From: Nitrospinae bacterium RIFCSPLOWO2_12_FULL_45_22
GTDB lineage: Bacteria; 2-12-FULL-45-22
Assembly: GCA_001803565.1 (NCBI GenBank)
Contig: MHDQ01000287.1
Coordinates: 7,005-29,101, forward strand
Length of the DNA: 22,097 nt
Reading direction: 5' to 3'
The notes under the pieces were generated by a model, which saw nothing but the letters and a program-made list of their open reading frames with translations, was not told the DNA's origin and made no database searches. The position numbers and the translations under genes were made by a program. Of the stretch, positions 1 to 10,714 are shown one piece after another. Each line of letters opens with the position of its first letter. The first letter of the stretch is position 1.

Positions 1-35
1 GCAATAAAAGTATTTGTGTCAGCAATAACTTTCAT
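1..35 (-). CDS. PIN-domain protein, N-terminus only (cut by window edge)
   Basis: Reading the minus strand from an ATG at 35-33 gives MKVIADTNTFI before the sequence ends. The hydrophobic strand followed by D-T-N is the usual start of PIN-domain ribonucleases such as VapC toxins, where this Asp is the first metal ligand. The gene lies immediately beyond the attC hairpin, so it would be the first gene of the next cassette. No antitoxin gene is visible between the attC and this start; one could follow it outside the window. Only 11 codons are visible, so the family call rests on one motif. Confidence 0.5.
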   Translation of the reverse strand, partial: MKVIADTNTFI

Positions 36-71
36 ATGTACAATTGTGCTTTAGAATTTAATTTTTGTCAA

Positions 72-130
72 GCCGAACGGCTCGGATGAGGGGCGCGCGC
101 TTTTTGCGCGTCCCTCTCGAGCCGTTAGTT
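72..130 (-). repeat. attC recombination site of an integron cassette
   Basis: A 59-bp near-palindrome with attC architecture. The outer core-like heptamers are GTTAGTT (124-130) and GCCGAAC (72-78). Inside them AACGGCTCG pairs with CGAGCCGTT, then GAGGG with CCCTC and CGCGC with GCGCG, around a T-rich loop. Unpaired bases (GAT on one side, single T residues on the other) give the asymmetry expected of attC hairpins that are recombined as folded single strands. It begins 11 nt after the stop codon of the nuclease gene at 142-912, on the 3' side as in gene cassettes. A Rho-independent terminator is less likely because the core heptamers and asymmetric bulges fit attC and no U-tract follows. Confidence 0.75.
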
Positions 131-141
131 ATGTGTTCTTT

Positions 142-912
142 TCATTCCGTGATCGCCCCTCTCAAAATACTTTTGAATAAATCGCTCCATGTTAACCAGC
201 CCATATTGGCTGCAACGGTCTGAATAGGTGGAATATCTATTCCTTCAAGTGCTTTCCTCAGAGGACTTAAACTGTAGTTTCTTCCAAACTTATAGTAATT
301 GGATAGCCAAGCGCTTTTCCATTTATCATCAAATCCTTTTTGTACTGGTGCAAGCGCTTCAGATTTATTTTTTCTTTTAGTCAGTTTCTCAAGCGGTGCT
401 ATATCAAGAAAGATAAAAAAGAATTCCCTTGTGTCGTTCAAGGGAGAATCAAGACCGATTCGTAGTTTTCTGGCAATTTGATCATGTGGCTTAGTCGGTA
501 GCGACGCCATACTCATTGGGCTGTATAATTTTGCTTCAATGAATATCAATTTTCCCGGTAATTCTATGCTCGCATCTACTTCGGTTGATTCCTTTGTGGA
601 AGAACCGGTATATTGTTTGCCAATATAAATTTGGATTTCATTTTCTTTAAATTTGCCATCCTTGAACAAGAATTTGTTCTGTCCTTGGTACGCGTCCTCA
701 AATATTTCATCCAATACAGATACTTTCTTCTTTATAGGTAAGCTGTATAGCACATCGAAACAGGACCATGTTAATGCATCCTCGCTGTGAGAATTGAACC
801 CATTATTCCACTTGTGCTGCATTCCTTTATAGTCTTGTTTGAGAAAGGCTTCCAAAGCTTTTTCTCTGCCAGGCAAAATTACATGGTTACGTCGATAGTC
901 TTTATAGATCAT
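142..912 (-). CDS. PD-(D/E)XK-fold nuclease-like protein (cassette gene)
   Basis: 256 residues, unrecognised as a named family. Residues 111-128 read as a PD-(D/E)XK core: E111 and D113 in a strand, then the hydrophobic strand ending in E126-A-K128 (IFIEAK), followed by Q145 in the helix HDQIARKL. This arrangement is typical of restriction-enzyme-like nucleases. An N-terminal SEDALTW segment (43-49) could supply another acidic helix residue. No membrane segment or signal peptide is visible. The ATG at 912 has only a weak GGA upstream. The gene is divergent from the methyltransferase gene, and its stop lies 11 nt from an attC site. It could be a restriction enzyme, a nuclease of another defence system, or an extra component of the neighbouring restriction-modification pair. 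The fold is moderately sure; the target is unknown. Confidence 0.6.
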   Translation of the reverse strand: MIYKDYRRNHVILPGREKALEAFLKQDYKGMQHKWNNGFNSHSEDALTWSCFDVLYSLPIKKKVSVLDEIFEDAYQGQNKFLFKDGKFKENEIQIYIGKQYTGSSTKESTEVDASIELPGKLIFIEAKLYSPMSMASLPTKPHDQIARKLRIGLDSPLNDTREFFFIFLDIAPLEKLTKRKNKSEALAPVQKGFDDKWKSAWLSNYYKFGRNYSLSPLRKALEGIDIPPIQTVAANMGWLTWSDLFKSILRGAITE

Positions 913-979
913 TGGCTATTCCGCTTTTGCCGATAGCTTTGACGTAACCATCTTTCCCTAAAAAAGAGCAAGAAAAGGG

Positions 980-1008
980 TTGACTCATTTGGTAAACCCC
1001 AGTATATT
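980..1008 (+). promoter_or_regulatory. Promoter of the methyltransferase gene, leaderless arrangement
   Basis: TTGACT (980-985), a 17-bp spacer and TATATT (1003-1008) match the sigma-70 consensus well. The gene's best ATG is at 1016, seven bases after the -10 box, where transcription would be expected to begin. There is no Shine-Dalgarno sequence before that ATG, so the mRNA is probably leaderless. Confidence 0.65.
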
Positions 1009-1015
1009 ACCCATC

Positions 1016-2344
1016 ATGAAACGAACAAAGCATCCCATCATCGTCAACGAGGACCTGGACATGCACCAGTTTGGACAACACCTGAGGGCTATCCGTATTG
1101 GGTGCGGCTTGACCCAAGCCGCAGTCTCGAAACAACTGAATGTCTCTAAGGGATATATTTCCCGCCTTGAGGGAGGCAAGGCTCGCCCGTCGGAATCGGC
1201 GGTTCGGCGACTTGCCGAGGCATGTGGGACTGATCCTGGTTCTCTCCTGATCCTGGCAGGTTACTTGCCTGGAGACATCCGAGATATTTTCAGGCAATAC
1301 CCCACGAAAGCGCCAGCGGTCTTGCGAGAAACATTCCGGGACAATGGTTATGAGACGGAAGAAAGAACCGGAATTGCAGCGGCTGTCGCCGAACCACATG
1401 CGGTCTTTCAAGCAAATGAAGCAACCTACGATCTTGTCCAGGGAGATTGCTTCGAGTGGATGGAGCGCCATCAAGCCGATAGTATTCATGCCATTGTCAC
1501 GGATCCGCCCTACGGCTTAAAGGAATACACGGACATTGAGAAATCCAAACTCAGGCGCGGCCGTGGGGGCGTTTGGCGAATCCCTCCTGCTATTGGTGGA
1601 TGCGTCCGTCGTCCGCTGCCGAGGTTCACAGTTCTCAACAACGATGACAAACAAGAACTCGCAGAGTTTTTTCGGAAGTGGGGCGAGCGTGCATTTGCGG
1701 TTCTCGTTCCGGGGGGGCACGTGTTCATAGCCACCAACCCGCTTCTCTCTCAGTTGATTTACACAGCCCTCCTTGAAAGCGGATTCGAAAAGCGTGGCGA
1801 GATCATCCGCTTGGTTCAGACTCTTCGCGGCGGAGACCGTCCCAAGAATGCGCACGATGAGTTCAAAGACGTCACTGTCATGCCTCGATCCTGTTGGGAA
1901 CCATGGGGTCTCTTCAGAAAACCTTGCGAGGGTCGAGTCCAGGACAACCTCCGTAAGTGGAAGACGGGGGGGCTTCGTAGGGTTGGCTTGGATCAACCGT
2001 TCTGCGATGTTATTAGAAGCTCTCCGACGCGCTCCATTGAGCGCGAGATTGCTCCACATCCGTCCCTCAAACCACAGGGGTTTATGCGCGAGATAGTGCG
2101 TGCGGCATTGCCCCTTGGGGAAGGTATCGTCCTTGACCCATTCATGGGCGGAGGTTCGACCGTTGCTGCCGCATTGGCAGTCGGCTACACAAGCATTGGA
2201 ATCGAAAACGATCCACAGTTCTTCGCGATGGCAAAAGAGGCAATCCCGAGGCTGGCAGCTCTGGTGCCTAATGGGCAGCCCAAGGAGCGATCTTCCCGTA
2301 TTTCGAGGGGCACCGCAAGCACCCAGCCGACCCTGTTTGATTGA
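1016..2344 (+). CDS. XRE-type HTH / beta-class DNA methyltransferase fusion
   Basis: 442 residues from the ATG at 1016. The N-terminus (about 18-75) is an XRE/HTH_3 DNA-binding domain, with the core LTQAAVSKQLNVSKGYISRLEGG. The catalytic domain follows: DPPYG (163-167, motif IV) comes first and LDPFMGGGST (373-382, AdoMet-binding motif I) comes near the end. This IV-before-I order marks a beta-class amino-methyltransferase. DPPY favours N6-adenine, though N4-cytosine is not excluded. The region between, about 170-350, would hold target recognition. The partner nuclease lies tail-to-tail 23 bp downstream. The HTH domain could repress the gene's own promoter, as C proteins and some methyltransferases do; this is inference. 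A TTG at 980 would extend the protein by 12 residues but coincides with the -35 box, so I reject it. Base composition is visibly richer in G+C than the flanking cassettes. Confidence 0.88.
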   Translation: MKRTKHPIIVNEDLDMHQFGQHLRAIRIGCGLTQAAVSKQLNVSKGYISRLEGGKARPSESAVRRLAEACGTDPGSLLILAGYLPGDIRDIFRQYPTKAPAVLRETFRDNGYETEERTGIAAAVAEPHAVFQANEATYDLVQGDCFEWMERHQADSIHAIVTDPPYGLKEYTDIEKSKLRRGRGGVWRIPPAIGGCVRRPLPRFTVLNNDDKQELAEFFRKWGERAFAVLVPGGHVFIATNPLLSQLIYTALLESGFEKRGEIIRLVQTLRGGDRPKNAHDEFKDVTVMPRSCWEPWGLFRKPCEGRVQDNLRKWKTGGLRRVGLDQPFCDVIRSSPTRSIEREIAPHPSLKPQGFMREIVRAALPLGEGIVLDPFMGGGSTVAAALAVGYTSIGIENDPQFFAMAKEAIPRLAALVPNGQPKERSSRISRGTASTQPTLFD

Positions 2345-2367
2345 AGTCAGTATCATGATCTAGCGCT

Positions 2368-3015
2368 TCATGCTCTCGGGTTTGCTAGGATGTCTCGGTG
2401 CCGCCCTATCCCGACACCGGGAAGGCGGTAGAGAAAGTTGCTCCGAAGCTTCTCAACTCCTGTCGCCGTTATAGATGCAGTGGGCGTCCTTCGAGATGCA
2501 CCCTTCCGTCCTGAAAACGACCAATCCGTGCGCACGAGCTTGGCACACAGAATCTCAAGAAACGTCAGGGGAACAGTTTCACCATTATCCTGCTCCCCTA
2601 TCCCGTAGCGAAACACCATCAGCCAGCAGTCCTCTGGATTATGGCCCTGCCAACCTCCACGTTGAATGGACGATTTGACTTCTATTCCCTCGTCACCTTT
2701 CAAGACAAGATTCGAAGAGTAATGGCCTTTGGGGAGAAGGTCGGGATGGCCCCCGACCTTCATGTTGGCCTCCAGCGTTTGTGACGCGCGAGCAATATTC
2801 TTCACCAGGAACTCCGAGATTATACCTGAGAGTGAGTTCCCGAGCAGGAGTTCTTCGAGAGGTCGAAACCCACCCTGAATAAGGAAGTCGTTGAGACCGT
2901 GGAATAGCCTATATGTCTCTGCGACACCCTTCTCAACCTCGATAACCTGCAAACCATATGGTAACTGAACGCGACGATTGACGTATGTAATATCAAGCTG
3001 AGTAGGTCGTGTCAT
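2368..3015 (-). CDS. Type II-like restriction endonuclease, PD-(D/E)XK fold
   Basis: 215 residues. P91-D92 (GHPDLLP) and E112-V-K114 (GIEVKSS) form a PD-(D/E)XK catalytic core, which would cut DNA with Mg2+ as cofactor. The ATG at 3015 has an AAGGGAG Shine-Dalgarno about five bases upstream. The gene faces the HTH-methyltransferase tail-to-tail with 23 bp between the stops, as in many type II restriction-modification pairs. I therefore infer that it cuts the sequence protected by that enzyme. Similar G+C content in the two genes suggests they moved together. The recognition sequence cannot be read from the protein. I do not recognise the exact restriction-enzyme family. Confidence 0.7.
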   Translation of the reverse strand: MTRPTQLDITYVNRRVQLPYGLQVIEVEKGVAETYRLFHGLNDFLIQGGFRPLEELLLGNSLSGIISEFLVKNIARASQTLEANMKVGGHPDLLPKGHYSSNLVLKGDEGIEVKSSIQRGGWQGHNPEDCWLMVFRYGIGEQDNGETVPLTFLEILCAKLVRTDWSFSGRKGASRRTPTASITATGVEKLRSNFLYRLPGVGIGRHRDILANPRA

Positions 3016-3050
3016 GTCTGCTCCCTTATTCTGTCGCCGCGTTTTGGTCG

Positions 3051-3122
3051 GCTAAAGGTACGGCTAAGCGGTTGCAATGGAGCGTAGCGGAATTGCAATC
3101 CGACTTGATCCGATTGTTAGAA
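3051..3122 (-). repeat. attC-like site, partly degenerate
   Basis: Starts 5 nt after the stop of the HEAT-repeat fragment. Reading the minus strand, TTCTAAC (3122-3116) is the first core, then an arm with AATCGGATCAAG and TTGCAAT/ATTGCAA arms around a short loop, then CTTAGCC and CTTTAGC as degenerate second-core candidates. Arms pair through TTGCAAT, AAG/CTT, CGG/CCG and CTAA/TTAG with unpaired bases between, as attC sites do. The second core lacks the expected leading G, so this may be a decayed site. The 3' position after a minus-strand gene matches the attC at 72-130. Confidence 0.55.
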
Positions 3123-3127
3123 ACAAA

Positions 3128-4189
3128 TCATATATCAATTGGTTGCCAAATGAATTTATTCTTAAATTTTCCGGGTGCATATAAAAAACCGTCCAAAAAG
3201 CTTGTTACGTTATAATAGTACGTCTGGCTTTCAATATAAGAGTTCAAAATAGTCTCAAGTTGATTCCTGCCGAGGTCCCTCGAAAGTATTTGGGCTACTA
3301 ACAGACGAATCTTGTCATGTTCAGAATGTAATAATTTGGTTGCGAGAGGAATTCTATCCTCCCGCGACAGTAAATGAATCTGTTCAGCAGCTATTTCGGA
3401 AATATTTTTGTCTTTTCCGTAAACCAAATCTTGAATCACTTTCAACTGATTGCCACTAAGTTTAATGGCTACAATTACGGCCTTTCTCTGGGTGTAACCA
3501 TAAGTATCTTTAGCTAGATTGATGAGGCGTTCGATGTCTGTATGATCACCGTGTCTTTCAATTATTGAAATACAATCATCATTACCCCTCCCGTGCTTGA
3601 GATTCCCCATATACTGTCTTGCAAATTGAATATCAGCTTTATCATTTAACATTGACAGTCCTTTCAATGCCGCTTCTGTAAAAGAATCCTTAAGGAATTG
3701 TTCTATGCCTGGCTTATATTGCGCTAAAAGCAATGAAGCATTATCACCATATTCTGCCTTTAACTTGTCAATAGAATTCCTTTTGATATCTTCGAAGTTA
3801 TTATTCAAATCTGATCTAATTTTTTCTGCCATAGTTGAAAAGTGCAAGATTAACAAAGCTTCATAAGCCTCTTTGCCGTACCCAGAATAAAAATCAACCA
3901 TGTTTTCAAGTTCTTCTTGTGTCCGTCTCGAAAGAACCAACGGAATGATATCATCCTCTGTAACGTGAGGACTTGATAGACCTAGTAATGTCGGTCGCCC
4001 TTCTTTTGGCGTAGGAAATAGTTTAGAAATTTCACTGAGACTAAATTTTCTGCCGTTGTTAATTAACCAAATGAAGCCGATTTTTCTAACAAATGAATCA
4101 GTATCAGCGAGGATTTTTTCTGAAATATCAGCCGTCAATGCGCTTATTCTATCCGTAAAATAGCGATTGATTTTTGAGCAAGGATATTT
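3128..4189 (-). pseudogene. HEAT-repeat C-terminal fragment, probably of the DUF4062 gene split by an IS
   Basis: The frame is open from 4189 to the TGA at 3128; the first usable start is a TTG at 4138 without a convincing Shine-Dalgarno. Residues after 4138 contain helical repeats with HEAT character, such as the segments around DTDSFVRKIGFIWLINNG and HDKIRLLVAQILSRDL. No catalytic motif is seen. The upstream DUF4062 protein ends in the same kind of repeat. Removing the IS at its 9-bp flanking repeat joins the two in the same frame, making about 808 codons, with one TAA lying within the 9-bp repeat. I infer one former gene, encoding a sensor-like repeat protein with a DUF4062 effector head. 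An independent second gene remains possible. Its end abuts an attC-like site. Confidence 0.6.
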
Positions 4190-4193
4190 TTAG
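4185..4193 (+). repeat. 9-bp direct repeat flanking the IS, left copy
   Basis: TATTTTTAG here is repeated exactly at 5816-5824. The pair flanks a transposase-bearing segment of 1622 bp and may be the target-site duplication. IS1380-family duplications are usually shorter, so part of the match may be chance in AT-rich sequence. Confidence 0.5.
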
Positions 4194-4383
4194 TCCTGCT
4201 CTGAGCTTTTCTCTTACTCAGGTATTATTTTTATGTTAATTAACATTAATTACTGATTTGAAAGCCTCAATTATTATTAACCAGGCCAAATAGAGGCTAT
4301 TTCTAGGCGGACTTCCCCTCTGCCTTCTCGAAGAAGGCCAATGATTATGAGATAGCTCCCTTAGACTAGGTAAATATCCTGGG

Positions 4384-5694
4384 CTATCCAGGTCGACATA
4401 GGGCAGAGATGTTCTCACGAATCTCTCTAAAGAGGTTATATTTCTCTAGGCCTGCAGCAATCTTAAGGATAATACTTCTGCCATGCTTAACCACCCGGGC
4501 GGCGGTTTCAAACAGCCTCCAGCGAAGGGTGGCTACGGTATGATACATCCACTCTGGGGGACAGCACAGGCGTTTAAAACCAATCAACACATTGTAAGCA
4601 ATGCTGCCCAAGCGATACCATACCGCATTGGCATAGCTTTCCCCACAGGGCAGGGTCTCTAAGCCAAATCCGATCTTGGATTCTTTGATATAATTCTCTG
4701 CATTCCCCCGGCCATTATGCCACTCTAATACCTTCTCTGCATCCCATTTCTCGGGGAAGTTGCTAGCAACGGCATGATAACGCTCTTTGGGACCCTCTCC
4801 CCATAAACTTAACTGGAGTTCTCTCTCCTTTAGCACAATCAGGCGGAAGGCCTTCTTGGTATGCTCCATGCTGTGCACCGTCTCTGCTATCCAGGCGCCA
4901 TCCCTATCCTTCATGGGTTTCCAATCCTCAGCCGTGATAGCCTCTATGGCTTTTTTAACCGCACTATCCTGATCTGCCGTAATGGTATATTCTATCTGAT
5001 CCTCCTCGCAGTGATTTATAATCCCTGCCTGATAAGCAGCGCTGTCACTGCGGAATCTCTTAATCTTCTTGCCCTGAGGCATCCGCCTCTGGCATTCCTT
5101 CAGGGCCTCCAACAACCCCTTGGAAGGACTCTCATTGCCCTCCCGAAATTCCTCATAGATCTTTAGCCCGTTCTCTGCTAGATACCCCTCCAAAGGCATA
5201 TAGCCCTTAAAGCCCTTATAGGTCATCTGGGCCTCTCTCTTGTTGGCCTCAATAGCCGTGGCATCTAAGTCCAAAGTGTATTCACTAAAAGGCTCCCGCC
5301 TCATCACTTGATGACAGTGGGCTATCTGAACCCTCTCCAATCCCTTAAGCCCTTTTGCTCTCTTAGCAGGATTCCCCATCCGGCGCAACCAGTCCCCCGT
5401 AGCCGATACCGAAGGAATTTCATACTTCAAGACCTTCTTCAATCCCTTATCCCCCTCCAATATCCGCAAATCCTCTATACACCTACCCCCTCCTAGCTGC
5501 ATCAGGATTATGGGTTCGGCATAGACTACTGCCTTCCTGCCTCGCCCACTCCCAGGCTCGGGAAGCTCCCGCGCTAAAGCCCGGTGCAATCCAAGCCCAT
5601 GCAGGTATTCTCCTACCAGGGCTAATCCCGCCCTGGGAGTTAATACCTCATCTGTCATCTCTAGCTTGAATGGCAAAACGGTTTGTTGTGTCAT
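4384..5694 (-). CDS. IS1380-family DDE transposase
   Basis: 436 residues, apparently intact. The DDE triad can be placed at D144 (LDLDAT), D217 (RSDSAAYQAG) and E333 (in GNAENYIKESK); the last motif is characteristic of IS1380-type transposases. It catalyses cut-and-paste movement of the element. The ATG at 5694 follows an AAGGAGGG Shine-Dalgarno about 12 bases upstream. A strong promoter lies within the element at 5753-5781. The full length and intact motifs suggest recent insertion compared with the degraded integrase tail nearby. Confidence 0.9.
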   Translation of the reverse strand: MTQQTVLPFKLEMTDEVLTPRAGLALVGEYLHGLGLHRALARELPEPGSGRGRKAVVYAEPIILMQLGGGRCIEDLRILEGDKGLKKVLKYEIPSVSATGDWLRRMGNPAKRAKGLKGLERVQIAHCHQVMRREPFSEYTLDLDATAIEANKREAQMTYKGFKGYMPLEGYLAENGLKIYEEFREGNESPSKGLLEALKECQRRMPQGKKIKRFRSDSAAYQAGIINHCEEDQIEYTITADQDSAVKKAIEAITAEDWKPMKDRDGAWIAETVHSMEHTKKAFRLIVLKERELQLSLWGEGPKERYHAVASNFPEKWDAEKVLEWHNGRGNAENYIKESKIGFGLETLPCGESYANAVWYRLGSIAYNVLIGFKRLCCPPEWMYHTVATLRWRLFETAARVVKHGRSIILKIAAGLEKYNLFREIRENISALCRPG

Positions 5695-5752
5695 TTTCTT
5701 CTGAGCCCTCCTTGGTTTAGGGTTTCACCCGCATGGTGATGGTTTTTTAACC

Positions 5753-5781
5753 ATTATACCTGGCTGAAACCCTTATTCCAA
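5753..5781 (-). promoter_or_regulatory. Transposase promoter inside the IS
   Basis: On the minus strand TTGGAA (5781-5776), a 17-bp spacer and a perfect TATAAT (5758-5753) precede the transposase. A palindrome ATGGTT-TTTT-AACCAT just downstream, and inverted GGGTTTCA/TGAAACCC arms around it, could fold in the leader and limit transposase expression. Confidence 0.65.
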
Positions 5782-5815
5782 GGAGATTTTTCCATTTGAG
5801 GCTATTTTTAATCAC

Positions 5816-5824
5816 TATTTTTAG
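5816..5824 (+). repeat. 9-bp direct repeat flanking the IS, right copy
   Basis: Exact copy of 4185-4193. On the minus strand it contains the TAA stop (5823-5821) that ends the DUF4062 reading frame. The identical TAA also precedes the downstream fragment, so clean excision would leave one in-frame stop. Confidence 0.5.
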
Positions 5825-7188
5825 GTTCTATTAAGGTAATCTGCTGCATATTCCCTGACACGGGGCGCTGCCTCAAATATTGCTGAAACAATCAAATCAA
5901 CACTCACTTTGATGTCAAGGCTCTCCAGTGAGGCTTTATACACATTTGTTACTTCAGTTGACTTTTCTTTGAGAAGAATAAATGACTGTTCCGGTTCAAA
6001 TAAATATAACAAGTCTATGTAAGTAGCCATAGCAACATTTCTTATATTTTCATTTTCATGAGTAAGTAGTGGTTCTAAAAGGGCTAGAAATGTTTTTTCT
6101 TGACAGTATTTTATTAGACTAATTGCCGCGATAATGATGTCATCGTCATCGTCCTCCAGTAGATCACTCATTATTTCTAGTGGAGGAGTAGTATTGGAAT
6201 AATTCAAAGCCGCCAATGCACCTTTTCTGACTGCACCATTGCGATCATTTCGCGACAAGTAAAAAAGTATGTCTTCTATGTCGTTAACATCTTTACCAGA
6301 AAGCCAATACCATCCCGGTATAACACCAGAAAAATCACCAAAGTAGGTTCTCATTAGGAACGATTTTTCATTAAAGGATAAATTCCACTCATTTCTTTTT
6401 CGATATACTAAGTTAGTCTCATGTGTTCCGAAAAGTTCTCCTATATGTGATGAGGAAAAAAGGGCGCTGGCAGAAAGATAGGCACGAATACGTTCCCAGT
6501 AATCTATCTCTTCCTCATTACCATCTCCTAAACATTTTCCAATCTTAGTGAAAACGTCAATGAGTTCATCGTTCTTATTATCTCGATAATTCGCTTGTTC
6601 TAGTTTTGCATATGGAACAGCGTTGGAGGTAGGCGGCTCGGTTTCTAAATCGGAAGACGTTTTCTGGGAGCTATTATTAATATCTAACAAGTATGCACTT
6701 AGATCTTCAAAAGCTATATCCCTAAATGCACTTATGTCTTCAAATTCCTTAAATAAAAGCTCCTTGCCTTCTATAAGTTGCTTCTTGAAATGAATACATT
6801 TTTTTAGCTGTTCTCCTGGATCTTTGAATAGCTCTTCTTCAATTCGCTTGAAAAACATCCATATTTCTGGCTTGTCACCATTGATCCTCCTGCTACGAGC
6901 AATAGAAAATTCTTCTTCGAAGCCAGAACTATACTCACCGCTTTCCGTACCCCAGCGCTTCCATAGCATGCCAATAAATAAATCGCAATTTTCAACATCC
7001 TTGTTTATTAAGGTTTGCGGCCTAGAAAAGCCAGCTAGGGTATCTTCCCATCCCAATAGCTCTATTTGCCATCCAATGCGCTTTCCATATATTTTATTTA
7101 ATCTTTCAACTACATCTCTTAGAGTTTTTCTCTCGTCACTCAAATCACTGGGAGATGCGACAAAAACTGATAAAATCTTCCGTTCCAA
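5821..7188 (-). CDS. DUF4062-domain protein with HEAT-like repeats, 5' part of IS-split gene
   Basis: 455 residues. The first ~100 residues match DUF4062: VFVASPSDLSDER near the start and, around 68-95, CDLFIGMLWKRWGTESGE followed by an acidic helix. This domain occurs at the N-terminus of multidomain proteins with NACHT, TPR or HEAT regions and is suspected of defence or signalling roles; no reaction is established that I can cite. Residues about 300-455 are alpha-helical HEAT-like repeats with a DDDDD acidic stretch. The start is a TTG at 7188 preceded by AAGGA at eight bases. It is first after the integrase remnant and its promoter, and G+C is low. The stop falls exactly in the IS flanking repeat, so the protein is probably truncated from about 800 residues. 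Confidence 0.75.
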   Translation of the reverse strand: MERKILSVFVASPSDLSDERKTLRDVVERLNKIYGKRIGWQIELLGWEDTLAGFSRPQTLINKDVENCDLFIGMLWKRWGTESGEYSSGFEEEFSIARSRRINGDKPEIWMFFKRIEEELFKDPGEQLKKCIHFKKQLIEGKELLFKEFEDISAFRDIAFEDLSAYLLDINNSSQKTSSDLETEPPTSNAVPYAKLEQANYRDNKNDELIDVFTKIGKCLGDGNEEEIDYWERIRAYLSASALFSSSHIGELFGTHETNLVYRKRNEWNLSFNEKSFLMRTYFGDFSGVIPGWYWLSGKDVNDIEDILFYLSRNDRNGAVRKGALAALNYSNTTPPLEIMSDLLEDDDDDIIIAAISLIKYCQEKTFLALLEPLLTHENENIRNVAMATYIDLLYLFEPEQSFILLKEKSTEVTNVYKASLESLDIKVSVDLIVSAIFEAAPRVREYAADYLNRT

Positions 7189-7224
7189 GCTATTGGTCCT
7201 TTCTTTCTATTGAGCAATTCTATT

Positions 7225-7231
7225 TTCTAAC
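7225..7231 (-). other. Putative cassette boundary core (G^TTRRRY-like)
   Basis: The minus strand reads GTTAGAA here, about 40 nt before the DUF4062 start. This is the exact complement of the first core TTCTAAC of the attC-like site after the HEAT fragment. In integron cassettes the two ends of one cassette show just this complementarity. The motif is short and the region AT-rich, so chance is possible. Confidence 0.4.
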
Positions 7232-7245
7232 TACTAATTATATAG

Positions 7246-7279
7246 AAAAAAATTCTGCATTTTCCGGTAAAATGCAGAA
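7246..7279 (-). terminator. Hairpin plus U-tract in the leader of the DUF4062 gene
   Basis: An 11-bp perfect inverted repeat (7253-7263 with 7269-7279, TTCTGCATTTT and its complement) closes a five-base CCGGT loop. On the minus strand it is followed by seven T residues. It may terminate transcription from the integrase remnant, act as an attenuator between the promoter at 7331-7359 and the DUF4062 start, or belong to an attI-like region. Confidence 0.55.
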
Positions 7280-7330
7280 AAATTTCTGTTATAATCCAAA
7301 TATTATCGTTTTTTACAGAATTCTACCCTC

Positions 7331-7359
7331 ATTATAAAAACTAAAGAGCTATCTGACAA
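7331..7359 (-). promoter_or_regulatory. Cassette promoter with operator-like palindrome
   Basis: On the minus strand TTGTCA (7359-7354), a 17-bp spacer and a perfect TATAAT (7336-7331) form a strong sigma-70 promoter reading into the DUF4062 gene. A perfect palindrome TGACA-A-TGTCA (7354-7364) covers the -35 box and overlaps the integrase stop codon, so a repressor site is plausible. The predicted leader is about 135 nt. By position this would be the array's cassette promoter. Confidence 0.6.
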
Positions 7360-7361
7360 TG

Positions 7362-7508
7362 TCAATGATCTAATGGGCTTTTTATACTTATCCCGGGCTT
7401 ATTTAACACATGGGTGTAAATCATAGTGGTTGAGACATCGCTATGACCCAGCAACTCTTACACCGTCCTGATGTCGTAGTTTGCCTCCAGTAGATGGGTG
7501 GCATAAAA
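7362..7508 (-). pseudogene. Integron integrase (IntI-type tyrosine recombinase) C-terminal remnant
   Basis: Conceptual translation of the minus strand gives ATHLLEANYDIRTV, a stop, then [16 protein letters not shown] and a tail ending KSPLDH before TGA at 7362. The second catalytic His/Trp-region histidine (LGHSD) and the nucleophilic tyrosine (MIYTHV) are present. The catalytic Arg-His segment expected just upstream is replaced by QGFY. The in-frame TAA replaces the usual Gln of DIRTVQ. The [16 protein letters not shown] and SPLD signature is typical of IntI proteins. Everything 5' of it is missing: the fragment starts eight bases after the waaA stop. It cannot be functional. A related non-integron recombinase is possible, because the IntI-specific insertion lies in the lost part. 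Confidence 0.8.
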
Positions 7509-7515
7509 TCCCTGG

Positions 7516-8841
7516 TTAGGGATTATTTTTATTCAATAATTCTTTTATTAGCTCAAGATAGCGGGAGACGGCCCCCTGGTTAGCAAAGACCACTTGTTGG
7601 GCCTTTTCTCCTAGTTCTTCTATTTTCTGGGGCTGCTGCAACAGCTCCAGCATCTTATTGGCCAGTCCTTGACCATCCTGGATCTGGATACCACCACCGC
7701 TCTCTATCAGTATCCGGCCTATCTCTTCGAAATTAAATACCGAGGGGCCAAAAAAGACCGGCTTTTTGTGCACCGCTGGCTCCAGCAGGTTCTGGCCCCC
7801 GGTCGGGACTAGACTCCCACCTACAAAGACCAGGGTGCCTAAGGCATATAGAGAGGCTAATTCCCCTAAAGTATCCAATATAATGATGGGCTTTTGATCT
7901 TTCTGGGGCGCTGATCCCTCTGCCAAAAGCTTAGTCCGTCTGATGCTGCGCAAGCCCTTTCTTTTTATCAGCTCCTCTATCTCCTCCGCCCGTTCAATAT
8001 GCCTGGGGGCTATTATCAAGACCAGTGATGGGTAGTGGAGCCTCAATTGCCCATACACTTCAACTATTATCTCTTCTTCACCACGATGGGTACTACCAGC
8101 GATAATTACCTGTTCCTGCCCGTTTAAGCTAAGGGATTGGCGCAGAGTATGTAATTCTTCTTTTGAAATGGCCGTTAAAGAAGTAGCCCGGTCAAATTTT
8201 ACATTGCCCAGTACCATTACCCTTTCTGGTGGGGCCCCCAGTTGCTGGATACGGTAAGCATCTGCGTCTGTCTGCATCCCGAAAAGGTCTATCTGACTAA
8301 GGACATGCCGCATAAAAAATCTTACCCGCCGATAGCCTTTATAAGATTTGGGTGAGAGGCGGCCGTTGATAATAGCTGACGGGACACCTTTTTGGGCCAG
8401 GTAATGGAAAAAATTGGGCCAGAGCTCGGTCTCCATAGCCAGGAAGAGCCTGGGCTGGACGAAATCTATCACCCGCTTCACCGACCAGGGATAATCAAAA
8501 GGGAAAAAGATAAACTGATCTGCCCAGGGTATTTTCTCCTGGGCCGTGCGGTATCCGGTTACCGTTACGGTAGAGAGCAGGACTTTCAACTGGGGCCAGG
8601 TCTTCTTCACTTCTCTTACGATAGGCACCGCTGCTATTACTTCACCTACTGAGACGGCATGGAGCCAGACCCAATCTCCTGGTTCCCAATCAGACCGGAT
8701 ATGTTGGGGTAGGAGGCCAAGGCGCTCTTTAAGGCTGATCTGGTATTTAGCAGTAGTGCTTAGTTTATACAGGATAACTGGAAATCCTAAGCCTGTGCCT
8801 ATATGGAGCAATAAATTATAGATGATAAAGCCTGGTTTCAT
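7516..8841 (-). CDS. waaA: 3-deoxy-D-manno-octulosonic acid (Kdo) transferase
   Basis: 441 residues, the normal size for the GT30 family. It transfers Kdo from CMP-Kdo to the lipid A precursor at the inner face of the cytoplasmic membrane. The N-terminal hydrophobic segment (about 5-25) fits membrane association. WLHAVSVGEV (59-68) carries the catalytic Glu67, and METELWPNF is the second family signature in the N-terminal domain. The C-terminal half carries donor-site signatures such as GGSLVPTGGQNLLEPA. The ATG at 8841 lacks a strong Shine-Dalgarno. It lies 87 bp downstream of lpxI on the same strand, with a palindromic repeat between them, so it is probably the last gene of the lipid A operon. 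The number of Kdo residues it adds cannot be told from the sequence. Confidence 0.95.
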   Translation of the reverse strand: MKPGFIIYNLLLHIGTGLGFPVILYKLSTTAKYQISLKERLGLLPQHIRSDWEPGDWVWLHAVSVGEVIAAVPIVREVKKTWPQLKVLLSTVTVTGYRTAQEKIPWADQFIFFPFDYPWSVKRVIDFVQPRLFLAMETELWPNFFHYLAQKGVPSAIINGRLSPKSYKGYRRVRFFMRHVLSQIDLFGMQTDADAYRIQQLGAPPERVMVLGNVKFDRATSLTAISKEELHTLRQSLSLNGQEQVIIAGSTHRGEEEIIVEVYGQLRLHYPSLVLIIAPRHIERAEEIEELIKRKGLRSIRRTKLLAEGSAPQKDQKPIIILDTLGELASLYALGTLVFVGGSLVPTGGQNLLEPAVHKKPVFFGPSVFNFEEIGRILIESGGGIQIQDGQGLANKMLELLQQPQKIEELGEKAQQVVFANQGAVSRYLELIKELLNKNNP

Positions 8842-9735: not shown

Positions 9736-10714
9736 TATAACAATCCCCTGGGATAATCTTCTCCTCTTTCATCATATTTATAATTTTTAGGGCTATTTCT
9801 AAGGAATATAGTTCTTCCTCGACAGAGATATTCCTGGCAACCCCATTAGTAGCACAATCCAGCAAGTGCATAATTTCCAATTTTAAGGGGTTATCCTTAT
9901 GGACAAAGATCCTTTCTACAAAGGATTCTTGTTTATAGCGCAGCTCTTTTCTGGTAAGGATATGCTCAGAGGCGGCATTTCGATGGATATGGATATCTTG
10001 ATCGGTATAATTTAAGAAGAGATAAGCATCTCGCTGGGTGACGGCCAGGGTACGGATCTTATGCTGGGTTGCTCTACTAGCCGTTATACTGGCCAGGCAG
10101 CCATTCTCGAAGGCGATCTGGACATTAGCCAGGTCTTCATACCCAGAATAGAGGGAGTAACCCACTACATTTATTTTTTTTACTTTAGAATTAACTAAAC
10201 TGAGGACAATATCCAGATCATGGATCATCAGATCCAGGATCACTCCCTCATCCTGTATCCTGGGGGTATAAGGCCCTAAGCGGCGGCTTTCTAAGAATAT
10301 GGGTTGGTTAACCAGCCGCTTTAATTCTTGCACTGCCCCATTAAATCGCTCCACATGGCCAATATGGAGTATTGCACCATGTTTGTCGGCTATATGAAAT
10401 AGTTCCCGGGCATGCTTCAGGTTTTGGGTAATAGGTTTTTCTAATAAAACATGAACGCCAGCTTCTAAGAAATCCTTAGCTACTTGATAGTGCTGAGGAG
10501 TAGGGACGGCAATGCTTACTATCTCTACCTTGCCTATTAGCTCATGGGCATGATGGTAAGGAGTGGTATTATACCGCTGGGCAATTTCATTGGCCCGGGC
10601 TTTATCAGTATCTGCTATCCCCACCAGGTCTACCTGGTGGAGCTCGGAATAGACCCCTACATGATACTGTCCCATGTGGCCTACACCTACTACCCCGGAT
10701 TTAATAGCTGGCAT
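9725..10714 (-). CDS. Gfo/Idh/MocA-family NAD(P)-dependent oxidoreductase, GnnA-like candidate
   Basis: 329 residues from the ATG at 10714. I chose this start because GGGAGG lies just upstream; a further ATG at 10735 would add seven residues before the Rossmann strand. The N-terminus holds GVGHMG (10-15, dinucleotide binding), followed by the LLEKPIT motif (about residue 90), HVERFNGA, and LDLMIHDLDIV with the family's catalytic-region His-Asp. It overlaps lpxI by 11 bp. In several bacteria a Gfo/Idh/MocA protein next to lpx genes is GnnA, which oxidises the 3-hydroxyl of UDP-GlcNAc ahead of amination by GnnB to make amide-linked lipid A. No gnnB is visible here, so the substrate is an inference. 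Confidence 0.82.
   Translation of the reverse strand: MPAIKSGVVGVGHMGQYHVGVYSELHQVDLVGIADTDKARANEIAQRYNTTPYHHAHELIGKVEIVSIAVPTPQHYQVAKDFLEAGVHVLLEKPITQNLKHARELFHIADKHGAILHIGHVERFNGAVQELKRLVNQPIFLESRRLGPYTPRIQDEGVILDLMIHDLDIVLSLVNSKVKKINVVGYSLYSGYEDLANVQIAFENGCLASITASRATQHKIRTLAVTQRDAYLFLNYTDQDIHIHRNAASEHILTRKELRYKQESFVERIFVHKDNPLKLEIMHLLDCATNGVARNISVEEELYSLEIALKIINMMKEEKIIPGDCYNGY

Follow-up and report, generated by a model that had tools for sequence, protein, structure and literature searches.

Reverse ("unusual") integrons have been described from Treponema denticola and its relatives, Chlorobium phaeobacteroides and Blastopirellula marina (PMC3607928, PMC6557892). Sedentary chromosomal integrons have been proposed to act as biobanks of defence systems (Darracq et al. 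2025, reviewed in PMC12409362). As relayed in that review, the survey describes integron defence systems as streamlined, with at most two genes.

The window analysed here is a stretch of 22,097 nucleotides from a draft genome (85% complete) of Nitrospinae bacterium RIFCSPLOWO2_12_FULL_45_22. Between kdtA and lpxK it contains what is very probably a reverse chromosomal integron in decay, which carries mostly defence-type cassettes. Like the known reverse integrons (Treponema denticola and others), it has its attI core, here a candidate, of the form GTTRRRY and 3′ of intI; unlike them, it sits in a distant host lineage, is decayed, and belongs to an integrase family with a HARP-like N-terminal domain. 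With sedentary chromosomal and classical integrons it shares attC structure, cassette logic, a promoter-first layout and defence-type cargo, but it differs from them in intI orientation and in its cassettes, which measure 2.5-3 kb and hold as many as three genes.

The kdtA-lpxK insert and its reverse layout

Two lipid A genes, kdtA and lpxK, which are neighbours in 13 of 29 other genomes, are here separated by an insert of ~8.8 kb. This comprises the last 48 codons of intI, a predicted sigma-70-type promoter, a candidate attI core and three to four cassettes; every gene but one lies on the integrase strand, and the array runs on for ~1 kb to the left of the window. The anatomy, orientation, family and decay of the locus are legible in these letters, and the initial annotation, which had proposed a decayed integron with a reverse integrase, is borne out by the tail, the promoter, the core, attC polarity and sister loci. 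An empty kdtA-lpxK site was sought in the only relative from the same taxonomic order (G001, a draft 68% complete), where no kdtA match was found. An Rfam scan of the window gave chance matches only.

The intI remnant (7362..7505, minus strand; 48 codons with one in-frame TAA) adjoins the end of kdtA. As claimed earlier, it is an IntI-like C-terminal tail: it matches residues 283-330 of the IntI profile NF011946 at 55.6 bits, shares 40 of 46 residues (87%) with the intact IntI of L220, an integron in another phylum, and is 82-86% identical in DNA to two loci of the same genome, C136 and C317. Of an intI with catalytic core and IntI-specific insert, as a complete integron has, the window retains only residues 283-330; the insert and the HARP-like domain are therefore visible only in the sisters. 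An IntI profile search of contig C287 found no intact intI.

The predicted cassette promoter, a feature also listed in the initial annotation, is a Pc-like TTGTCA-17-TATAAT on the minus strand (7359-7331), matching the consensus at 11/12 positions. Its homologues, in an alignment read by eye, are TTGACA-17-TATAGT in C136 and TTGACG-17-TATAAT in C317. A hairpin, TTCTGCATTTTACCGGAAAATGCAGAA, followed by T7 (7253..7279, minus strand; two found, 0.1 expected), might be part of attI or terminator-like; L220 has a shorter palindrome in the same place (ATACAGA..TCTGTAT), and a related one occurs in L126/L142. The core-like heptamer of the initial annotation is GTTAGAA (7231-7225, minus strand), which starts cassette 1 and is exactly complementary to TTCTAAC, the R″ box of that cassette's own attC; the corresponding core in L220 is GTTGGGC. 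Heptamer and promoter together represent a candidate attI and cassette promoter beside intI, attI being a site without a general model.

In the window, C136 and L220 alike, the cassettes lie 3′ of intI and attC polarity follows the intI strand, which is the reverse layout. C136, a sister of the window's locus within this genome, is followed by canonical attC sites that share its polarity. Both C136 and C317 have the same head as the window with the N-terminal part fused to the tail, and the stretch from tail to promoter is common to all three loci. In L220 IntI is complete, and the core, the first cassette and both of its attC sites lie 3′ of the gene; an intact integron of this order in another phylum shows that the layout is real. 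The same genome holds classical, divergent integrons too. Nearly every attC site of the comparison set (105 of 106) matches one of the two geometries, classical or reverse, which makes calls of polarity reliable. Reverse integrons in the sample come from Elusimicrobiota, Nitrospira, Omnitrophota, Lentisphaerota, Actinomycetota and other groups. The initial annotation named a few lineages such as Treponema and Chlorobium; reverse integrons are not confined to these.

attC sites, cassettes and cargo

A covariance-model search for attC sites on the contig and its left flank had been named beforehand as the test of the integron reading. The model (CM R1, trained on 53 attC sites from elsewhere) was run over 14.6 kb with filters off, and its ranks 1 and 2 fell on the two predicted sites, both on the minus strand as predicted. 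The first (72..134; 24.1 bits, E 5.7e-4; relaxed structural scan 12.25) is the clear attC at the end of the nuclease gene and closes cassette 2; its R′ box GTTCGGC (78-72) opens cassette 3, and no plus-strand model match was found at this position. The second (3051..3122; 12.6 bits, E 0.26; relaxed scan 11.75) ends the DUF4062-HEAT gene and closes cassette 1. Taken alone it scores weakly; it has three extrahelical bases (GGAT[C]AAG[T]CGG[A]TTGCAAT), and its R′ box, TTTAGCC, ending at 3050, has lost the crossover G. R″/R′ boxes, an L″/L′ stem and extrahelical bases are present in the window's sites. Cassette 3 has an attC that can hardly be recognised (8.1 bits), and the model maximum in the other 14.8 kb of the window is 6.6 bits.

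The relaxed structural scan placed 72-134, 3051-3122 and L009 5999-6127 (minus) as its top three, all on one strand, and none of 20 shuffles reached 11.5. The third is an additional attC left of the window, the side on which, by the initial annotation, further sites would support the reading. The whole genome has 62 attC matches. Complementarity between cassette start and R″, as in cassette 1, occurs in 65% of 51 neighbouring attC pairs vs 10% after shuffling, and R″ GCCGAAC at L009 6415-6409 is exactly complementary to the start of cassette 3. Loose hairpin scans, which are unable to tell attC sites from other hairpins, had pointed to the plus strand for 72-130, but both the covariance model and the relaxed scan put the site on the minus strand. 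Mutations in the R′ boxes or 3′ arms caused a strict consensus scan to miss the window's own attC sites, leaving 72-134 uncalled in the minus orientation.

Cassette 1 carries a DUF4062-HEAT gene (3128..7188, minus strand; Pfam DUF4062 E 1.6e-11, HEAT_2 E 5.8e-6; PADLOC PDC-S60 E 3.4e-29). The gene had been recognised together with the attC at its end, but it is not whole: an IS1380-like insertion sequence (4153..5825, minus strand; Pfam DDE_Tnp_1_4 E 4.7e-43) splits it into frames 5821-7188 and 3128-4138. The element, which we take from its resemblance to belong to the IS1380 family, has a DDE transposase (4384-5694), terminal inverted repeats (CCGTAAAATAGCGATT / CCTAAAAATAGTGATT) and a 6-bp target duplication, TTCTAT, at 4147-4152 and 5826-5831. 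Related partial copies lie on C303, C282 and C39.

Cassette 2 (2.98 kb) holds three genes, a restriction-modification pair, as first annotated, and a nuclease. The putative type II restriction endonuclease (2368..3015, minus strand) matched no Pfam or PADLOC family; in Gordonia and Iamia its homologues are plasmid-borne and adjoin genes for DNA methyltransferases. Its partner, an HTH plus N6/N4 DNA methyltransferase (1016..2344, plus strand; Pfam N6_N4_Mtase E 5e-19, HTH_31 E 9.8e-18; PADLOC MTase_II E 5.7e-113), lies on the strand opposite to the integrase tail. The PD-(D/E)XK-like nuclease (142..912, minus strand) has a D..ExK motif, seen by eye, and a REase-ARP match (E 6e-5) that falls under the curated cut-off. 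Cassette 3 starts with a vapC-like PIN-domain gene (1..35, minus strand; Pfam PIN E 4.1e-6), as proposed, and continues with a Phd/YefM antitoxin (L009 6386-6631; Pfam PhdYeFM E 3.9e-9). The attC-adjacent genes and the PIN gene are all on the minus strand with the integrase tail, in agreement with the first reading. From the family matches MTase_II, PDC-S60, REase-like and PIN/Phd, the cargo is predicted to be mostly defence-type, and cassette 2 to be one unit with a defence function. Large multi-gene defence modules had been called unusual cargo; here that description applies to one cassette, the three-gene one.

Clusters of attC sites lacking an integrase are termed CALIN in IntegronFinder. 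The window resembles a CALIN in having several attC sites and no functional intI nearby, but its intI tail can still be recognised, with the promoter and the candidate attI core attached. Such an array, derived from a classical integron, might have moved beside an unrelated IntI fragment, the reverse orientation being accidental. The genome is indeed rich in IntI fragments and attC arrays, and one deletion breakpoint is common to three heads, so duplication or rearrangement has occurred. This account is nevertheless very improbable: the tail-promoter stretch recurs in three loci, the order is repeated in C136, where the attC sites score well, and L220, in another phylum, shows it with a complete gene, which strongly disfavours an accident. 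Scarcely credible is a defence island, without any integron, whose borders are hairpins formed by chance and the remnant of an ordinary tyrosine recombinase. The cargo is defence-like and the strict scan gave no minus call for 72-134, but the attC model and scan matches are strand-specific and located at gene ends, the boundary heptamers are complementary, the tail is IntI-type by homology, and a check of the rest of the contig found attC-model matches less frequent there.

Within the reverse-integron reading, it is possible, if somewhat doubtful, that cassette 2 is not single and has lost an attC that once separated the nuclease from the restriction-modification pair, in which case its genes arrived separately. 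Decay of the array and mutation of its attC sites speak for this, as do the surveys, which, as far as PMC12409362 relates Darracq et al. (2025), report no integron defence systems of more than two genes. Against such a split, 142-3015 contains no attC-like match above 9.7 bits and none at the two gene junctions, and the intact L220 likewise has a two-gene cassette of ~2.3 kb.

The HARP-like integrase family

The sister integrases bear an additional N-terminal domain that is DNA-binding-like. Four IntIs with such a domain score 13.5-14.6 bits against Pfam HARP (PF07443), with no score reported for L217 and L086; these values are under the curated cut-off of 25 bits, so the domain is named HARP-like only, and in this it differs from SMARCAL1 HARP. 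The predicted fold (pLDDT 84.8) resembles SMARCAL1 HARP (4o66; Z 5.0, rmsd 1.4 A, 47 residues) and the archaeal XPB damage-recognition domain (Z about 6-6.7), a match that serves as a lead since unrelated folds score equally high. A sequence profile search of the domain against solved structures returned nothing, and the open-access papers searched contain no report of HARP-like integron integrases.

All six HARP-like integrases with attC sites in reach are reverse, vs 11 reverse and 35 classical among integrases without the domain (p = 0.0006, uncorrected for kinship; the three independent pairs are too few for significance). In the integrase tree, which leaves out Treponema IntI, the window's family nests among classical IntIs, outside the main reverse clade; by this tree, reversal together with the HARP-like domain arose a second time in that family. 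A bolder and rather unlikely idea is that integron integrases gained a HARP-like fork- or junction-binding domain by repeated fusions, each accompanied by reversal, the window being the remnant of one such independent event. If so, the domain would have a part in the mechanism: it might grip the folded single-stranded attC at its base, for instance, or hold an attI 3′ of the gene.

Proposed history and significance

The locus would originally have had a full-length integrase that began, like its sisters, with a HARP-like domain and was read towards its own attI, which would have lain directly downstream of the intI stop codon beside the cassette-driving promoter. This enzyme would have recombined folded single-stranded attC sites with attI, and capture there would place the newest cassette first under the promoter. 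Later decay deleted most of intI and cost one attC its crossover base, and an IS1380-like element disrupted the first cassette gene. The remnant is a fixed, presumably promoter-driven array of a broken DUF4062-HEAT gene, a restriction-modification pair plus nuclease and a PIN/Phd toxin-antitoxin, which may serve in defence. Recombination by its own enzyme is no longer possible; the intact classical integrase of C304 could still work in trans on the array's attC sites.

The direction of an integron decides whether integrase transcription runs into the cassette insertion site. Reverse integrons have so far been described from few lineages, and the present comparison extends them to many phyla and places both layouts within one genome. 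Cassette 2 is a candidate three-gene, 3-kb defence-type cassette, a kind absent from integrons according to the published surveys as summarised in review. For experiments, the HARP-like domain offers a testable marker, and L220 is a relative from the window's own family that is intact.

Setting of the insert and the integrase remnant

The window takes up bases 7005–29101 of the 29.1-kb contig C287, part of a 3.67-Mb draft genome that is 85% complete, and the contig extends 7 kb further left (locus L009, which also covers the window's left part). lpxK follows kdtA on the same strand in 13 of the 29 other genomes with kdtA, mostly with a gap of <150 bases (one comparison genome is from the window's order; the remainder are related at domain level only). 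The two are therefore a conserved pair, and about 8.8 kb has been inserted between kdtA (window 7516–8841, minus strand) and lpxK (L009 4617–5726, minus strand) at this locus.

Next to kdtA lies an intI remnant (7505–7362, minus strand), interrupted by one in-frame stop, that encodes the final 48 residues of an IntI-type integrase. Contigs C136 and C317 of the same genome carry this stretch too, over 160–230 bases at 82–86% DNA identity. Where the window has the tail alone, these two have an N-terminal part joined directly to the tail, the middle of the gene missing from an identical point. The window's remnant begins exactly at this breakpoint (codons ATHLLEA; window 7505, about 10017 in the C136 locus and about 8765 in the C317 locus). 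The three remnants may be copies of one deleted integron head that spread within the genome, or the breakpoint may be a hot spot.

After the intI stop codon, on the minus strand, comes a promoter-like TTGTCA-17-TATAAT (11/12); its equivalents, read by eye from an alignment, are TTGACA-17-TATAGT in C136 and TTGACG-17-TATAAT in C317. Between this candidate cassette promoter and the putative attI is a hairpin of 11 pairs followed by T7 (7279–7253, minus strand); it is terminator-like on either strand and would serve as an attenuator or else belong to attI as an inverted repeat. The putative attI core heptamer, GTTAGAA (7231–7225, minus strand), lies 3′ of both. In the reverse integrons L126, L142 and L220 (3460–3400), ATACAG..CTGTAT palindromes stand immediately ahead of the GTTRRRY core, a possible attI design common to reverse integrons; in L126 and L142 they lie about 130–170 bases past the intI stop and overlap a TATAAT.

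attC sites, cassettes and cargo

A canonical attC scan (R″ box, spacer, stem with an extrahelical base, six pairs, extrahelical A, inner stem, back to R′) found 13 matches scoring ≥13 over 331 kb, whereas Markov shuffles yielded none. A covariance model was built and calibrated from 53 sites at other loci, the window's own being left out. Run over L009 without filters, it places first and second, both on the minus strand, the attC-like sites that the initial annotation had put at 72–130 and 3051–3122: L009 7076–7138 (window 72–134; 24.1 bits, E 5.7e-4) and 10056–10124 (window 3052–3120; 12.6 bits, E 0.26). In the other 14.8 kb of the window no match exceeds 6.6 bits. Left of position 1, where the annotation had proposed looking for more attC, lies a further site: a relaxed scan, in which R′ may be mutated and up to three extrahelical bases may occur, has as its top three window 72–134, L009 5999–6127 and window 3051–3122, all on the minus strand, with no shuffle reaching 11.5. 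The site at L009 5999–6127 has a long loop and a mutated R′ (GTTACCG), and sits after a small antitoxin-like reading frame. Another, L009 6343–6415, retains the 5′ arm only, GCTCCACCTGACCGC, found likewise by eye in several canonical sites.

In an array, a cassette's first seven bases should complement the R″ box that closes it; this complementarity is exact in 65% of 51 neighbouring attC pairs versus 10% when shuffled. The boundaries are exact for cassette 1 (GTTAGAA ... TTCTAAC) and cassette 3 (GTTCGGC ... GCCGAAC). Cassette 1 encodes a DUF4062-HEAT protein, its gene interrupted by an IS1380-like element (4153–5825; inverted ends, duplication TTCTAT), and cassette 3 a PIN toxin with a Phd/YefM antitoxin. 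Cassette 2 has three genes: a plus-strand one for an HTH-DNA methyltransferase, one for a protein with homologues that adjoin methyltransferases on plasmids, and one for a PD-(D/E)XK-like nuclease. The start of the cassette, TTTAGCC, is apparently a mutated GTTAGCC and partly matches one candidate R″ (AACTAAC). If single, cassette 2 is unusual, because a review of the 2025 surveys reports that integrons lacked any defence system with three or more genes (PMC12409362). The main alternative is that an attC has been lost inside it, so that it is not one cassette; the covariance model over L009 finds no attC within it.

Orientation of the array

Among 126 IntI loci scored for attC polarity, 65 attC sites fit the classical geometry (5′ of intI, opposite polarity), 40 the reverse (3′ of intI, same polarity) and one neither; attC polarity is therefore a reliable guide to orientation. 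In the window's genome, C304, C243, C115, C95, C206 and C17 are classical, and C136 and C287 reverse. One classical integrase there (L010 4451–5815, plus strand) is intact, with 454 residues and its own, different N-terminal extension. The genome is integron-rich and from a little-sampled lineage: the attC model gives 62 matches at E ≤0.1 genome-wide, and attC arrays occur on about 40 contigs, several beside broken integrases.

The nearest complete integrase, at L220 in genome G624, comes from outside the window's order. It matches the C136 integrase at 75% identity over shared columns and the window's tail at 87%. Its 3′ side reads GTTGGGC, first cassette, attC, two-gene cassette, attC, all on the integrase strand. 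The decayed integron with reversed integrase and defence-type cassettes proposed for window 1–7508 is real and was read correctly, and the reverse reading is secure because this intact locus has the same layout.

In such an integron, the integrase would be produced from a gene transcribed towards attI, cassettes would be inserted at the G of GTTRRRY, and the first would be placed under the promoter. The deletion of intI leaves the array frozen, unless another integrase acts in trans, such as the intact one of C304. Past activity of the array, its expression and protection against phage are what we infer.

The HARP-like domain and the origin of the layout

The C136 and L220 integrases have about 75 extra N-terminal residues, also present in Elusimicrobiota and Nitrospira integrases. 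The Pfam HARP match to these residues stays under the cut-off. A structure model (pLDDT 84.8) resembles the SMARCAL1 substrate-recognition domain (rmsd 1.4 Å over 47 residues) and the XPB N-terminal domain, with unrelated folds scoring equally. As a guess from this fold and from the known properties of SMARCAL1, the domain could assist in gripping folded or forked DNA, for instance an attC hairpin at its base. Some tyrosine recombinases without the integron-integrase signature (L013 on C55, L064, L060, L065) carry it too and are possible donors.

All six HARP-like integrases with attC in reach have the reverse layout, while among the others the classical layout outnumbers the reverse by 35 to 11 (Fisher p 0.0006). 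Kinship weakens this association, since the tree has four orientation changes, four domain changes and only three independent pairs, none contrary. Most reverse integrases fall in one clade (98/94); C136 and L220 (100/98) are nested among classical integrases (95/87), and thus reversal with the HARP-like domain would have arisen at least twice, if this tree of sequences holds.

The array belongs, in decayed form, to a known kind, the reverse integrons. Its variant, of which we found no description in the open-access papers searched, has a HARP-like integrase, both layouts within one genome and, if the tree holds, a second origin of the reverse layout.
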